From Nitrospinota bacterium (GTDB lineage Bacteria > Nitrospinota > Nitrospinia > JACRGO01), in assembly GCA_016212295.1 (NCBI GenBank), contig JACRGO010000191.1, forward strand, positions 1 to 19,202: DNA of 19,202 nt, in the 5' to 3' direction. The notes under the pieces were generated by a model that had not been told where the DNA came from, did not search any database, and saw only the letters and a list, made by a program, of their open reading frames with translations. A program made the translations under genes and the position numbers. Positions 161 to 19,202 of the stretch are shown one piece after another (the stretch's first letter is position 1; each line of letters starts with the position of its first letter).

Positions 161-191
161 TTGACTTGATAAATTGATAATTGTCGATAAA
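161..191 (+). promoter_or_regulatory. Possible intI promoter with repeated TTGATAA motif
   Basis: TTGACT at 161-166 resembles a -35 box. The only -10 candidate is GATAAA near 186-191, at a wide 19-nt spacing, so the match is weak. TTGATAA occurs at 166-172 and again at 174-180, with a related CGATAA at 185-190, giving an 8- to 10-nt periodicity. GTCAATTTGAC just before forms a small odd palindrome. These could be integrase or regulator binding repeats. No LexA-like CTG-N10-CAG box was seen. Confidence 0.25.
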
Positions 192-258
192 TATGGCATT
201 ATTGCGCTGTCCTGTAATCACCTCTTTCGTCACCCTCCTTTCTCCAGTGAGAGGGCAC

Positions 259-1245
259 ATGGCAGACTCGAAAAAACGTAAAATTCTCGATGAACTCAGC
301 GACTTCATGCGGCTGCGCCACTACTCCATTCACACTGAAAGAGCCTATTGTGACTGGATCAGGCGCTTCATCCGCTTCCACAACATGACGAAGCGAGAAG
401 ACATCCACGGCGAGGAAGAAAAGAAAATCGAATCCTTCCTTACCCATCTCGCCAGTGAAGAAAATGTCGCCCCGGCCACTCAGAATCAGGCCATGAATGC
501 ATTGATCTTTTTGTACAGACGATTCCTCAAAACGCCTCTGGACAAGGAGATCGATGCCGTCCGTTCCCGAAAGAAAACCAATGTCCCCGAAGTACTCACC
601 CGTGAGGAAGTGAGTGGCATACTCTCCCTCATGCACGGAACACCGCAACTCGTCACCAAGCTGCTGTATGGCAGCGGCCTCAGGATCATGGAAGCGGTCC
701 GGCTTCGTGTCAAGGATATTGATTACGGTTACAAGCAGATCACGGTCCATTCCGGCAAGGGCGCCAAGGACCGGGTGACTCCTTTGCCTGCTGCCCTTGT
801 TCCCCTGCTCGAAAATCACCTTGAGCGGGTTCGCCTGCTCAACGAGAAAGACCTTCAGGCCGGTTTTGGCGAAGTCTATATGCCCCATGCCCTGGCGAAG
901 AAGTATCCCGGCGCTCAGCGTGAATGGATCTGGCAGTATGTCTTTCCCTCCCGTGATCTGTCAGCCGACCCCAGGGCCGACGGCAAAGTGCGCCGCCATC
1001 ATGTCGATCCGAGCGTCATCAACAAGGCCATCAAGGCCGCCGCCAGGCAAAGAGGAATCAGCAAGAAAGTAAGCGCCCATACTTTCCGGCACAGCTTTGC
1101 CACCCATCTGCTGCAACGCGGCACGGATATCCGCACCATTCAGGCATTGCTAGGGCACAAGGACGTAACTACGACCATGATTTATACCCATGTCCTGGCC
1201 CAAGGTGGCTATGGGGTCAAGAGTCCGCTCGATGACCTGCTGTAA
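259..1245 (+). CDS. intI: Integron integrase IntI (tyrosine recombinase)
   Basis: This is a site-specific tyrosine recombinase that, in integrons, inserts and excises gene cassettes at attI and attC sites. The catalytic set is complete: R142, K167, H274, R277, H300 and nucleophile Y309, the last in a TTTMIYTHV context. The stretch [21 protein letters not shown] at about residues 212-232 matches the extra segment that separates IntI from XerC/XerD, and the RRHH that follows is also IntI-like. The N-terminal SAM-like DNA-binding domain covers about residues 8-100. I chose ATG 259 (328 aa) because GAGAGG lies just upstream and IntI proteins begin close to this point; an upstream TTG at 181 would add 26 unlikely residues. 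No attI or attC consensus was found on either side, so the integrase looks solitary here. Cassettes, if any, would most likely lie before position 1. Confidence 0.9.
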
Positions 1246-14734: not shown

Positions 14735-16678
14735 TCACCCCTCCATCTCATCCTTTATTTCCGTTGTTGACGGCAATCTGATGATAAAGGACACTCCTTC
14801 CGGGTCGAGGTTTTTAACCTCTATTGTCCCCTGGTGGTCCTGGACCGTGCCGAAGACTATGGACAGCCCCAGGCCCGTCCCCTTTCCAACATCCTTGGTG
14901 GTGAAAAAGGGGTCAAAGATACTCTTCAACTTCCCCTCTTCTATCCTCGGTCCGTTATTGGAAAAAATAATCTCCACCGAGCCTTCTTTCTGTCTGGTTT
15001 CCATTTTCAAGAGGCCGCCTTGCGTATTTTTTTCCTCGATGGCGTGTGACGCGTTGTTCAGGATGTTGACGAACGCCTGTTGCAGTTGGTGCGGATCGCC
15101 ATAAATTGTTTTTAAATCCCGGGCCAGGTCGGTCTTGATTTCGATTCCCTTCAGATCAAACTGGTGTTTCACCAGATTGAGCGTCTCCTCAATGGTGTCA
15201 TTGATATTCATTGTCCTTTTCTCGTGCCTGTGTTCCCTGGAGAAGGTGAGCAGGTTTTTCACGATCTTGGCCGAGCGTTCCGCTTCCTTGCGTATCTTTT
15301 CAATATCTTTTTTCACCTGCGGGTTTAAATCTTCGTTTTCAAGGATCAGTTCCGAATAGCCGATAATCCCGGTCAAAGGATTGTTAAGTTCGTGGGCCAC
15401 GCCCGCCACAAGCCCGCCGATGCTGCTCAATTTTTCCGCTTGCAGGAAATTTGCTTCCATTCTCTTCTTTTCCGTAAGGTCGCGGATAATGGCCGAGAAG
15501 TAAAGTTCCCCCCCGGCTTCAAAGGCTGAAATGGAAATTTCCAGGGGAAACTCCTCCCCGTTTTTTCTCTTGCCTAAAAATTCAACGGGTTTCCCGACGA
15601 TCCTTGCCTTCCTGGTTTCAAGGTAATTATTAAAGCTGCTTTGATGCTGCTCCACGAGATGTTCGGGCATAAGGATGGTGATATTCCGTCCGGCGACCTC
15701 TTCGCGGGCGTATTGAAACATATTCTCCGCCGCCTTATTGAACAGGGTGATCCTGCCCTCCGCATTGGCGGTGACTATGGCGTCCATGGCCGTCTCGGAC
15801 AGGGTGCGGTATTTTTCCTCGGACTCCCTCTGCTTGCTGGTCCTCGAAACAATGGTGTTTTTCATCTTATTGAAGCTTTTCGTGAGCTGGCCTATTTCGT
15901 CATCGGACGAACTTTCCAGGCTTATATCGTAATTTTCATCCTCCATCATTCTGGTGGCCTTGCCCAGCCTGGAGATGGGTTCCAGAACTATCCGGCTGAT
16001 TAAAACATACAGTATGAATTCCACGAACACTATGACGAGGACCCCGGAGATGAACAGTATCCACCGGCTTTTCCTGATCTCCGAGGTCGCCTTGTCCATG
16101 GGAATGAAAACGCTCAGCCCGCCCCGGACGTCGCCCACCTTGTATCCCTGAACGGCGTGGCAGGGAAGGCATTCCTCGGTCGTGTAAAGGGCCCCCATGA
16201 AGCGGAAGTATTCCCTGTCCTTGACCCGCTCCATCCTGAATGCCTCCTTTGTGCCTTTTTCCTCGAATTCCTTCAATGCCTTTTTTTCAAAGTCGTCGGG
16301 CTTATTAAAAGGGTTCAAGAGATTGAGGCTGGTCATGTGGAAGCGGAACAGGCCCAGTTTGTTGGCGTATTCGGAGAGCTCCCTTACCGCTATGGCGGGG
16401 TTGCGCAAGGTGAAGGTCCTCCCATCCTTTGTTTCAACATCCGGGTGGATAAGAAAGGGGTTGGATTCCACCCCCTCTCTTTTCTCCATGTAAATTCCTC
16501 CATGGTCCGCTATCCATTTCCTGGTTATCACCAACTGCTGGAACAGAATTAACGCTGAATTCTTGAGTTCGTGAAAGATCTGCTCCTCGGTGCGTTGGGC
16601 AACGCCCGCGAAAATAGCGCTGATGGATATGAATACTATCAGACCTACGGAAGCAGTGAGTTTTGTTTGGAGTTTCAT
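14735..16678 (-). CDS. Heme-binding sensor histidine kinase (DUF3365-HAMP-PAS-HisKA)
   Basis: A membrane histidine kinase that probably senses redox state, gas or a ligand outside the cytosol through a c-type heme. In order over 647 aa: N-terminal membrane helix (about 8-26), a DUF3365/Tll0287-like periplasmic domain with heme motif CLPCH at C170-H174, a second membrane helix (about 205-228), HAMP (about 228-280), PAS (about 288-410, EEKYRTLSETAMDAI; IIRDLTEKKRMEANF), phosphoacceptor H429 in AGVAHELNNPLTGIIGYSEL, and the ATPase domain with N-box (QQAFVNILNNASHAIEE), FDPFFTTKDVGKGTGLGLSIV. The G1 box reads NNGPR (N574-R578) where DNGPG is usual. The start ATG 16678 has a weak ribosome binding site. 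It is divergent from a receiver-bearing protein, its likely partner, and its stop touches that of metG. Confidence 0.92.
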   Translation of the reverse strand: MKLQTKLTASVGLIVFISISAIFAGVAQRTEEQIFHELKNSALILFQQLVITRKWIADHGGIYMEKREGVESNPFLIHPDVETKDGRTFTLRNPAIAVRELSEYANKLGLFRFHMTSLNLLNPFNKPDDFEKKALKEFEEKGTKEAFRMERVKDREYFRFMGALYTTEECLPCHAVQGYKVGDVRGGLSVFIPMDKATSEIRKSRWILFISGVLVIVFVEFILYVLISRIVLEPISRLGKATRMMEDENYDISLESSSDDEIGQLTKSFNKMKNTIVSRTSKQRESEEKYRTLSETAMDAIVTANAEGRITLFNKAAENMFQYAREEVAGRNITILMPEHLVEQHQSSFNNYLETRKARIVGKPVEFLGKRKNGEEFPLEISISAFEAGGELYFSAIIRDLTEKKRMEANFLQAEKLSSIGGLVAGVAHELNNPLTGIIGYSELILENEDLNPQVKKDIEKIRKEAERSAKIVKNLLTFSREHRHEKRTMNINDTIEETLNLVKHQFDLKGIEIKTDLARDLKTIYGDPHQLQQAFVNILNNASHAIEEKNTQGGLLKMETRQKEGSVEIIFSNNGPRIEEGKLKSIFDPFFTTKDVGKGTGLGLSIVFGTVQDHQGTIEVKNLDPEGVSFIIRLPSTTEIKDEMEG

Positions 16679-16853: not shown

Positions 16854-19202
16854 ATGGCGGATAAAAATATTTCCTTCAGCGAGAGCCTCTTGAAAAAAGG
16901 GCTGATCTCCAGGGAACAACTGGATAAAGCCCTGGCCATTCAGAACAAGGGCCGCTTGCTGGGCTCCATCGCCGTTGAATTCGGCTTGCTTGCCCAGGAG
17001 GATGTGCTGAAGGTCCAGGAATACCAGGAACTTCATAATAACCCCTTCGGAGAAGCCGCCATATCCCTCGGGTTCATCACCGCCAGCCAGTTGAAGTTCC
17101 TGCTCGATGTCCGCCTCCGTAAAAAAATCAGGATCGGGGATATCCTCGTCCAGGAGGGCTTCATTGAAAAAGAGAAGCTTTACGACGAGTTGATGAGTTT
17201 TGAAAAGAAGCGCCATCGCCTGGAGAAGATCCTCGTCTGCGATTCCTCGGAAATAGTCAACTCCCTCCTGAAGAAAAGACTGGAAAGGTATGGATATCGT
17301 GTATTTTCCACTGAAAGCCCTTCCAAAGCCCTTGAGGCCGCGAACAGGGAAACGCCCAATCTGATCATCGCGGGCGAGATTTTCAGCGGCATCTCCGAAT
17401 TGGTCGCCTGGACCCGAAATTTTTCCCTCCCGAAATTCTCTGAAACCAAGATCATCTACATGGCCCAGGATATTGATGAAAATCTCATTGAAAGAGCCTT
17501 TGAAGTGGGGATACACCATTTTCTCAAAAAGCCGGTCATGGAATATGAATTATTGAACGTGATCTATTCCATCGAACAGGAGACGAGGAAGAAACGGGAA
17601 GAAAAAATTCTCGTGGTGGAAGACAGCGATATGGTGCGGCAGATCATGGTCCGGGAACTCAAGCAGCACGGTTACACGGTATTTCAAGCCGGGAGCGGAG
17701 AGGATGCGCTGCGGACAGCGAAGGAGGAAAGGCCCGACCTCATCACCATGGATATCCTGATGCCCGGAATCGACGGATATGAAACTTGCCGCAGGCTGAA
17801 AAGTGATCCTGTGACCAGGGAAATCCCGGTAGTCATCGTAACCACCTGCAACAGCCTGGAGGAAAGGGAAAAGGGATTTGAAGCGGGGGCCGTTGAGTAT
17901 TTCATCAAGCCCTTCGCCCCGAACCAACTGGCCGATTTCATTAACCTGCTTTTTGAAACCAAGAAGACCCGACGCAAGGAAAAGGCCGTGGTCATTGAAG
18001 ACAATAAAACCACCCTCCATATCGTCAAGCACATCCTGGAAAAGCAGGGGATAGAGGCCGTTACCGCGGAAAACGGCCTGGAGGGACTGGAAAAAATCCG
18101 CCGGTTCCAGCCGGATATCATCCTGGCCGATATCTATATGCCTGTTATGGATGGATTCGAGCTTTTGCTGCAAATAAAGAAATCACCGGAAACCAGGGAC
18201 ATTCCATGCGTCCTCATGACCGGGTCCAGGGAAAAGGGGGATGTCTTGAAAGGGTTGGCCCACGGGGCAAGCGATTTTCTGATGAAGCCCTTTGACGAGG
18301 ACGAGCTTCTGGCAAGGGTCAGCAATCTGCTGGCCAACAAAAAACTATTCGATGAGTTTAAGTCCGAGAGGGAAAATACACTAAGACAAAGCAATATCAT
18401 GGAGGCCATTAACTCCGTCTTTCATAGGGCGTTGACCTGCGAGACCGATGAGGACGTGGCTCGCGCCTGCCTGGACGTGGCCGCGAAGCTGGCCGGCAGC
18501 CGGTTTGGTTTCATCGGAGAAATAAACAAGGACGGCAGGTTCGACACCATAGCCCAGAGCGACCTCGGCTGGGAGGCATGCAAGATACCCAAGTCGGACG
18601 CTATCCGAATGATAAGGAACATGGAAATACGGGGTTTATGGGGAACTGTTATCAAGAGCGAAAGCCCATCCATGGTTAACCATCCTGACTCCCATCCCGA
18701 CAGGGTTGGTACCCCGGAAGGCCATCCCCCCATAACCCGTTTCCTCGGAGTTCCCCTGAAAAAAGGGGGAAAGGTTGCGGGGCTCATTGGCTTGGCGAAC
18801 AAAGAAACCGATTACCTTATGGCCGACCGGCAAGCGGTGGAGGCCCTATCCTCCGCTTTTGTGGAGGTCCTGGCCCGGAAGCGGACGGAAATGGAATTGG
18901 AAAAACACCGAAAGCGCCTTGAGGAGATGGTGGAAAAGAGGACCGCTGACCTCACCGAAGCCAATAAGGAGCTTTCCCTTGAAATCCTGGAGCACGGGAA
19001 GGCCGAGGAAAAAATCAAACACAGCCTCGGTATAGAAAAATCCTTGTCAGGCATATCCAAGATCTTTGTCTCCAACCCTCACCCGGATTTTCATCTTGTG
19101 TTGCAATTTCTTGCGGCGGCTATTCCCGTCAACCGCGCCTATATCTTTCTCTTCAGGGAAAAAGAGGGGAAAATGGATAATGTCCATGAGTGGCGCGACG
19201 CG
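16854..19202 (+). CDS. Multi-receiver signalling protein: MshEN-like repeats, REC x3, GAF (partial)
   Basis: The frame is open from ATG 16854 (CGGAG 8 nt upstream) through 783 codons to the window edge, with no stop. Residues 7-116 are four copies of a 24-residue helical motif like the cyclic-di-GMP-binding MshEN motif of type IV pilus/type II secretion ATPases (glycines at 16, 44, 73 and 102). Residues 125-245 form a degenerate receiver with G174 at the phosphoacceptor position (IIAGEIF). Receiver 2 (250-370) is intact: E256, D257, D300, T330, K352. Receiver 3 (377-500) is intact: E382, D383, D426, K478. A GAF domain follows (about 515-675), then a charged coiled coil (about 676-720) and the beginning of a second GAF-like region. 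The output domain lies beyond the window and may be a kinase. It is divergent from the heme kinase, which probably phosphorylates it. Confidence 0.85.
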   Translation, partial: MADKNISFSESLLKKGLISREQLDKALAIQNKGRLLGSIAVEFGLLAQEDVLKVQEYQELHNNPFGEAAISLGFITASQLKFLLDVRLRKKIRIGDILVQEGFIEKEKLYDELMSFEKKRHRLEKILVCDSSEIVNSLLKKRLERYGYRVFSTESPSKALEAANRETPNLIIAGEIFSGISELVAWTRNFSLPKFSETKIIYMAQDIDENLIERAFEVGIHHFLKKPVMEYELLNVIYSIEQETRKKREEKILVVEDSDMVRQIMVRELKQHGYTVFQAGSGEDALRTAKEERPDLITMDILMPGIDGYETCRRLKSDPVTREIPVVIVTTCNSLEEREKGFEAGAVEYFIKPFAPNQLADFINLLFETKKTRRKEKAVVIEDNKTTLHIVKHILEKQGIEAVTAENGLEGLEKIRRFQPDIILADIYMPVMDGFELLLQIKKSPETRDIPCVLMTGSREKGDVLKGLAHGASDFLMKPFDEDELLARVSNLLANKKLFDEFKSERENTLRQSNIMEAINSVFHRALTCETDEDVARACLDVAAKLAGSRFGFIGEINKDGRFDTIAQSDLGWEACKIPKSDAIRMIRNMEIRGLWGTVIKSESPSMVNHPDSHPDRVGTPEGHPPITRFLGVPLKKGGKVAGLIGLANKETDYLMADRQAVEALSSAFVEVLARKRTEMELEKHRKRLEEMVEKRTADLTEANKELSLEILEHGKAEEKIKHSLGIEKSLSGISKIFVSNPHPDFHLVLQFLAAAIPVNRAYIFLFREKEGKMDNVHEWRDA

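Follow-up and report, generated by a model that had tools for sequence, protein, structure and literature searches.

The window analyzed here (the whole 19,202-nucleotide stretch of DNA, contig JACRGO010000191.1 of a Nitrospinota bacterium) ends inside the gene of a signalling protein. A sequence-only reading had described the N-terminal region of this protein as four MshEN-like repeats fused to receiver domains. This raises the question of whether the region really belongs with MshEN, and whether it could bring a second messenger, such as cyclic di-GMP (c-di-GMP), into contact with a phosphorelay.

Domain organization of the truncated signalling protein

The open frame of the gene begins at ATG 16854 on the plus strand, and the GGAG located eight bases upstream supports this start. 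The frame is still open at the end of the contig (C146 in our numbering, 19202 bases), which is also the end of the window. The gene (16854..19202, 783 codons in the window) is therefore incomplete.

Four 24-residue motifs of the MshEN type were revealed in its N-terminal part, at residues 7–30 (SFSESLLKKGLISREQLDKALAIQ, 16872..16943), 35–58 (LLGSIAVEFGLLAQEDVLKVQEYQ, 16956..17027), 64–87 (PFGEAAISLGFITASQLKFLLDVR, 17043..17114) and 93–116 (RIGDILVQEGFIEKEKLYDELMSF, 17130..17201), all on the plus strand, with starts 28, 29 and 29 residues apart. The same four positions had been proposed within residues 7–116, and they were recovered independently with a scoring matrix whose sole source was a set of 13 motifs from ATPases and glycosyltransferases that bear MshEN in related genomes. 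Motifs 1 to 4 scored 25.1, 11.8, 16.3 and 31.0 bits and are the top four positions in the 783-residue frame. The best four-motif chain (spacing 28–30) reached 84.3, far above the maximum over 5,000 shuffles (-27.0), and the second-ranking frame in the window gave -44.5. Motif 4 retains R, G, L, G, L and L, as previously noted. Comparison of the motifs with each other revealed no consistent pairing that would indicate a duplication history.

Behind the motifs, Pfam finds three Response_reg stretches on the plus strand, in agreement with the proposed receiver fusion. Receiver 1 (17223..17588) carries Gly174 at the phospho-acceptor position and is thus a pseudo-receiver; its nearest relatives have Gly or Ser at this position, and members of a second branch have Asp at the acceptor site but lack the acidic pocket. 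The phospho-acceptor Asp and the Lys by which PF00072 receivers are judged are intact in receiver 2 (17604..17942; D300 and K352, with the E256-D257 pocket and T330) and receiver 3 (17982..18344; D426 and K478, with the E382-D383 pocket and T456). They are followed by a GAF domain (18450..18857, plus strand; residues 533–668, PF13185, E 2.4e-20), a coiled coil and the cut end. A 540-residue model of the protein had a pTM of 0.38, too low to read the domain arrangement.

The nearest relative, L054, is also truncated at its end. In complete paralogs the C-terminal regions read as histidine kinases (kinase families match L064), and by analogy the missing C-terminus of the window protein would most likely be a kinase. 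In L066 the C-terminal region reads as a PP2C-like phosphatase (RssB-type match). Two relatives from Scalindua, L061 and L062, have a GGDEF end behind their receivers (TIGR00254, 9.1e-52 in L062); these two proteins may represent a c-di-GMP sensor placed on a c-di-GMP synthase.

Kinship to MshEN by sequence and predicted fold

No Pfam match over cut-off was found before residue 120 of the window protein. In particular, PF05157, the Pfam model of MshEN (cut-off 23.1 bits), matched neither the protein nor its isolated domain, and in the genome of the window it matched other contigs only. Pfam annotation would therefore overlook the four-motif domain. NCBIfam NF053729, a curated model of the MshE-related c-di-GMP motif, gave 72.5 bits (curated cut-off 38 bits) and an E-value of 1.7e-20 over two stretches, with residues 10–57 as the best; scored at separate places, it gave 43.9 and 35.9 bits. 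A sequence search of the PDB returned only two proteins, PilF of Thermus (1.6e-9) and MshE (0.015). Similarity to DUF4388 was weak, at or below the cut-off of that model.

A model of the domain obtained with AlphaFold2 from an alignment of 16 relatives contains eight helices in four short-long pairs (pLDDT 89.9, pTM 0.69). Its top Foldseek match is 5htl, the c-di-GMP-bound structure of MshE, which superposes at 0.7 A over 54 columns with a probability of 1.00; the E-value of 0.31 is poor for a region of this small size. PilF GSPII-B, also in complex with c-di-GMP, was another of the top matches. The VIA aligner gave Z 11.7 to 5htl_B (MshE; 2.1 A over 59 residues, model residues 33–91) and Z 10.5 to PilF, values in the range below about 13 that can reflect a common arrangement of helical bundles. 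The structural match to MshE carries weight because it agrees with the sequence evidence. Thus, the four-helix bundle of MshEN_N is found in the predicted model, no unrelated helical bundle came out of the prediction, and the suggested MshEN-like identity is upheld by both sequence and predicted fold.

The sequence-only reading had further held that the repeats are spaced more tightly than the usual tandem pair and may therefore fold differently. This argument falls, since in MshE itself two 24-residue motifs are joined by a 5-residue spacer, with 29 residues from Arg9 to Arg38 (PMC5013675), and 28–29 is the canonical spacing. A feature that does set the region apart from MshE and PilF is the absence of the MshEN_C subdomain, which supplies added contacts in both of them: after the bundle, motif 4 leads straight into receiver 1 at about residue 124. 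In the reading that we favour, the region of residues 1–118 is a doubled MshEN_N module composed of four helix-pair motifs without MshEN_C.

Comparison with known systems revealed that: (i) the protein shares with MshE of Vibrio cholerae (MshEN_N, 5htl) 24-residue motifs at a spacing of 29 and, in the model, the helix-pair bundle, but has four motifs, receivers instead of an ATPase and several lost consensus residues; (ii) Thermus thermophilus PilF (GSPII-A/B/C), its best sequence match in the PDB, likewise has several MshEN units per chain, each however with its own MshEN_C-type subdomain, whereas the four motifs of the window protein run unbroken; (iii) Bd2402 of Bdellovibrio, likened here by its description, is a two-component protein with MshEN and a reported binder of c-di-GMP, so that the receiver-MshEN fusion has a precedent (PMC5013675); (iv) Myxococcus PixA also joins a c-di-GMP domain to a receiver, but that domain is PilZ, not MshEN (PMC8316039).

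The MshEN motif, its fold and ligand, and a protein joining it to a receiver are thus already known. Our literature search, with most subscription papers outside its reach, found MshEN described and the four-motif form not described. New relative to the literature searched is an arrangement in which four motifs follow one another without a break and without MshEN_C, and which occurs both as a standalone protein and in kinase, cyclase and phosphatase contexts.

Distribution and genomic context of the four-motif module

With the window domain as a query, seven matches were found in the genome of the window and 10 in a congener (MAG Nitrospinia OFTM173). Across the phylum (77 genomes), strong matches fused to receivers were detected in the genus of the window, and standalone proteins of about 127 residues were scattered through other families. 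Other Nitrospinota and Scalindua records yielded more fused forms. From the phylum of Scalindua, 343 genomes were sampled evenly, and 37 of them matched the four-motif profile, some with the order receiver, four motifs, CheX. Among the relatives, the module is joined to parts of the histidine kinase, GGDEF, PP2C-like or CheX kind, or forms a protein by itself. A search of viral contigs and plasmids revealed no relative of the domain.

The CheX proteins of Planctomycetota, such as L101, share with the window protein the joining of the four-motif domain to a receiver and differ from it in domain order, in the CheX part and in having one receiver. It should be mentioned that at two loci of this phylum, L101 (955-2262) and L102 (979-1875), either a receiver, the four motifs and CheX are joined, or the four motifs and CheX alone.

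At seven of the eight Nitrospinota loci read, a CHASE2-Guanylate_cyc gene (742–743 residues, 56–88% alike) lies directly upstream of the standalone four-motif gene; this pair is seen at L082 (2913-5522) and also at L083–L088, with a flavin-reductase-like gene adjacent in most cases. In the genome of the window, a four-motif gene on contig C214 (L042) lies 23 bases before a gene of the HD-GYP type. Genes with c-di-GMP motifs beside HD-GYP-type genes were observed on both C214 and C91 of this genome.

Putative ligand and role in signalling

The binding residues were judged against the relaxed consensus that Wang et al. give (PMC5013675). Motif 1 departs from it at two positions (S7 for Arg at position 1, S9 for Gly at position 3), as does motif 2 (Leu at position 1 and, at the stacking-Leu site of position 21, Q55), while motif 4 departs solely at its last position, where F116 replaces Gln at position 24. 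An aromatic residue, Phe or Tyr, closes motif 4 in the tabulated relatives too and is a family trait. Motif 3, the most conserved in the family, is the only one of the window protein to agree with the relaxed consensus, and no pair of motifs does so in both members. Among relatives from other branches, agreement was found at motifs 2 and 3 in L063, which is better conserved, and at motifs 2 and 4 in L068; the standalone forms tested agree at motif 2 (L009, L010, L013) or motif 1 (L040).

Two lines of evidence disagree on which motifs would pair. The model residues aligned to the MshE bundle, 33–91, correspond to motifs 2 and 3, which places the predicted MshE-like bundle in the centre with motifs 1 and 4 outside. 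In the standalone relatives, linkers 1-2 and 3-4 are exactly five residues long and linker 2-3 is eight, which suggests pairs 1-2 and 3-4, against the model.

The loss of Arg need not be fatal, since PilF GSPII-B, which has Lys and Leu at position 1, still binds c-di-GMP at 6 nM (PMC11731258). Similarly, Bd2402, a Bdellovibrio response regulator with MshEN, binds the ligand tightly, and less conserved, imperfect MshEN proteins of the same organism were also caught by a c-di-GMP screen (PMC5013675). Binding by the window copy is therefore possible. The genome of the window contains 9 GGDEF, 18 HD_5 (HD-GYP type) and 21 PilZ matches over cut-off and thus possesses c-di-GMP machinery. The HD-GYP-type neighbour of the four-motif gene on C214 and the GGDEF ends of the Scalindua relatives also speak for c-di-GMP.

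Thus, it can be hypothesized that the four-motif module is an input or regulatory domain for a cyclic dinucleotide (most probably c-di-GMP) that acts on the receiver/kinase hub located C-terminal to it; we put the probability of this reading at about one half. The putative ligand site would be the MshEN half-site, in which leucines stack against each guanine and the main chain at the beginning of a motif holds it. Binding of the dinucleotide would change how the pseudo-receiver and the two receivers pack, or the state or partners of the hub, and a single protein could thereby couple the level of a second messenger to phosphorylation. Ligand binding by the window copy, the motif pair responsible and the effect on the phosphorelay are what we infer here. 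In general terms, the four-motif unit probably gives phosphorelays a second-messenger input.

In many bacteria, c-di-GMP enzymes far outnumber the known receptors. If the module binds c-di-GMP, it would be a widespread receptor invisible to Pfam annotation, connected directly to receivers, to kinases, to a diguanylate cyclase and to CheX domains, and the genus of the window would hold an expanded set of such receptors.

Several observations speak against the c-di-GMP reading: the departures from the relaxed consensus (two positions each in motifs 1 and 2, one in motif 4), the lack of a PF05157 match and of MshEN_C, and the fact that the enzyme encoded next to the standalone relatives is a class III nucleotidyl cyclase rather than one of c-di-GMP metabolism. 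The leading alternative, which we regard as possible though doubtful, is that ligand binding has been lost in the clade of the window and that this MshEN relative has become a module for protein-protein contacts or dimerisation within the receiver hub. The clade-wide loss of positions 1 and 3 of motif 1, Leu21 of motif 2 and Gln24 of motif 4 fits such a change, as do the polar residues K81, D85 and K91, which are conserved across the receiver-fused relatives and lie outside the MshEN consensus; the N-domain of Xanthomonas XpsE/GspE, where c-di-GMP binding has been lost, provides a precedent (PMC5013675). However, Gly at position 3 of motifs 2–4 and Gln24 of motifs 1–2 are invariant in 13 receiver-fused sequences, and the Arg that is missing here is dispensable in PilF (PMC11731258).

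A bolder form of the c-di-GMP reading, which we consider unlikely, takes the four-motif unit as a distinct sensor and not as two MshEN side by side. Around a central bundle of motifs 2 and 3, ligand bound at one interface might make the second accessible or shut it and so act as a switch for the receivers, kinases, cyclases or CheX domains joined to the unit, wiring c-di-GMP (perhaps cAMP) into the phosphorelays of Nitrospinota and Planctomycetota.

It appears improbable that the ligand is a different nucleotide (cAMP, cGMP or cGAMP), or that the module links c-di-GMP signalling with that of cAMP. The CHASE2-Guanylate_cyc gene directly upstream of the standalone gene favours such a role, but it is not direct evidence on the receiver-fused copies, some of whose kin adjoin HD-GYP-type genes, and MshEN half-sites suit the guanine of a dinucleotide. 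To our knowledge, no MshEN domain binds a mononucleotide.

Finally, it is very improbable that the motif helices merely resemble MshEN and are generic helical hairpins or similar to the fumarase C-terminus. In favour of such a reading, PF10415 (FumaraseC_C) reaches 2.9e-7 (16854-17225), slightly under its cut-off, and fumarase C-termini give Z of about 8 to the model in VIA. Against it, NF053729 surpasses PF10415 by about thirteen orders of magnitude in E-value and scores far above its own cut-off, the structural lead belongs to MshE and PilF, and four copies stand at the canonical MshEN spacing. The fumarase C-terminus, weaker than MshEN by every measure, was thus rejected as the identity of the domain; the likeness of MshEN helix pairs to the C-terminal domain of fumarase C may reflect either remote kinship or convergence.

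Returning to c-di-GMP as the input of a receiver hub, a possible phosphate donor, by adjacency only, is the divergent histidine kinase encoded at 14735..16678 on the minus strand (Tll0287-like region, HAMP, PAS, HisKA, HATPase). Its Tll0287-like sensor region contains a haem-type CxxCH motif (ECLPCH). Near the start of the contig, a 354-residue frame (181-1245, plus strand) resembles, as judged by eye from its sequence, an integrase or tyrosine recombinase.
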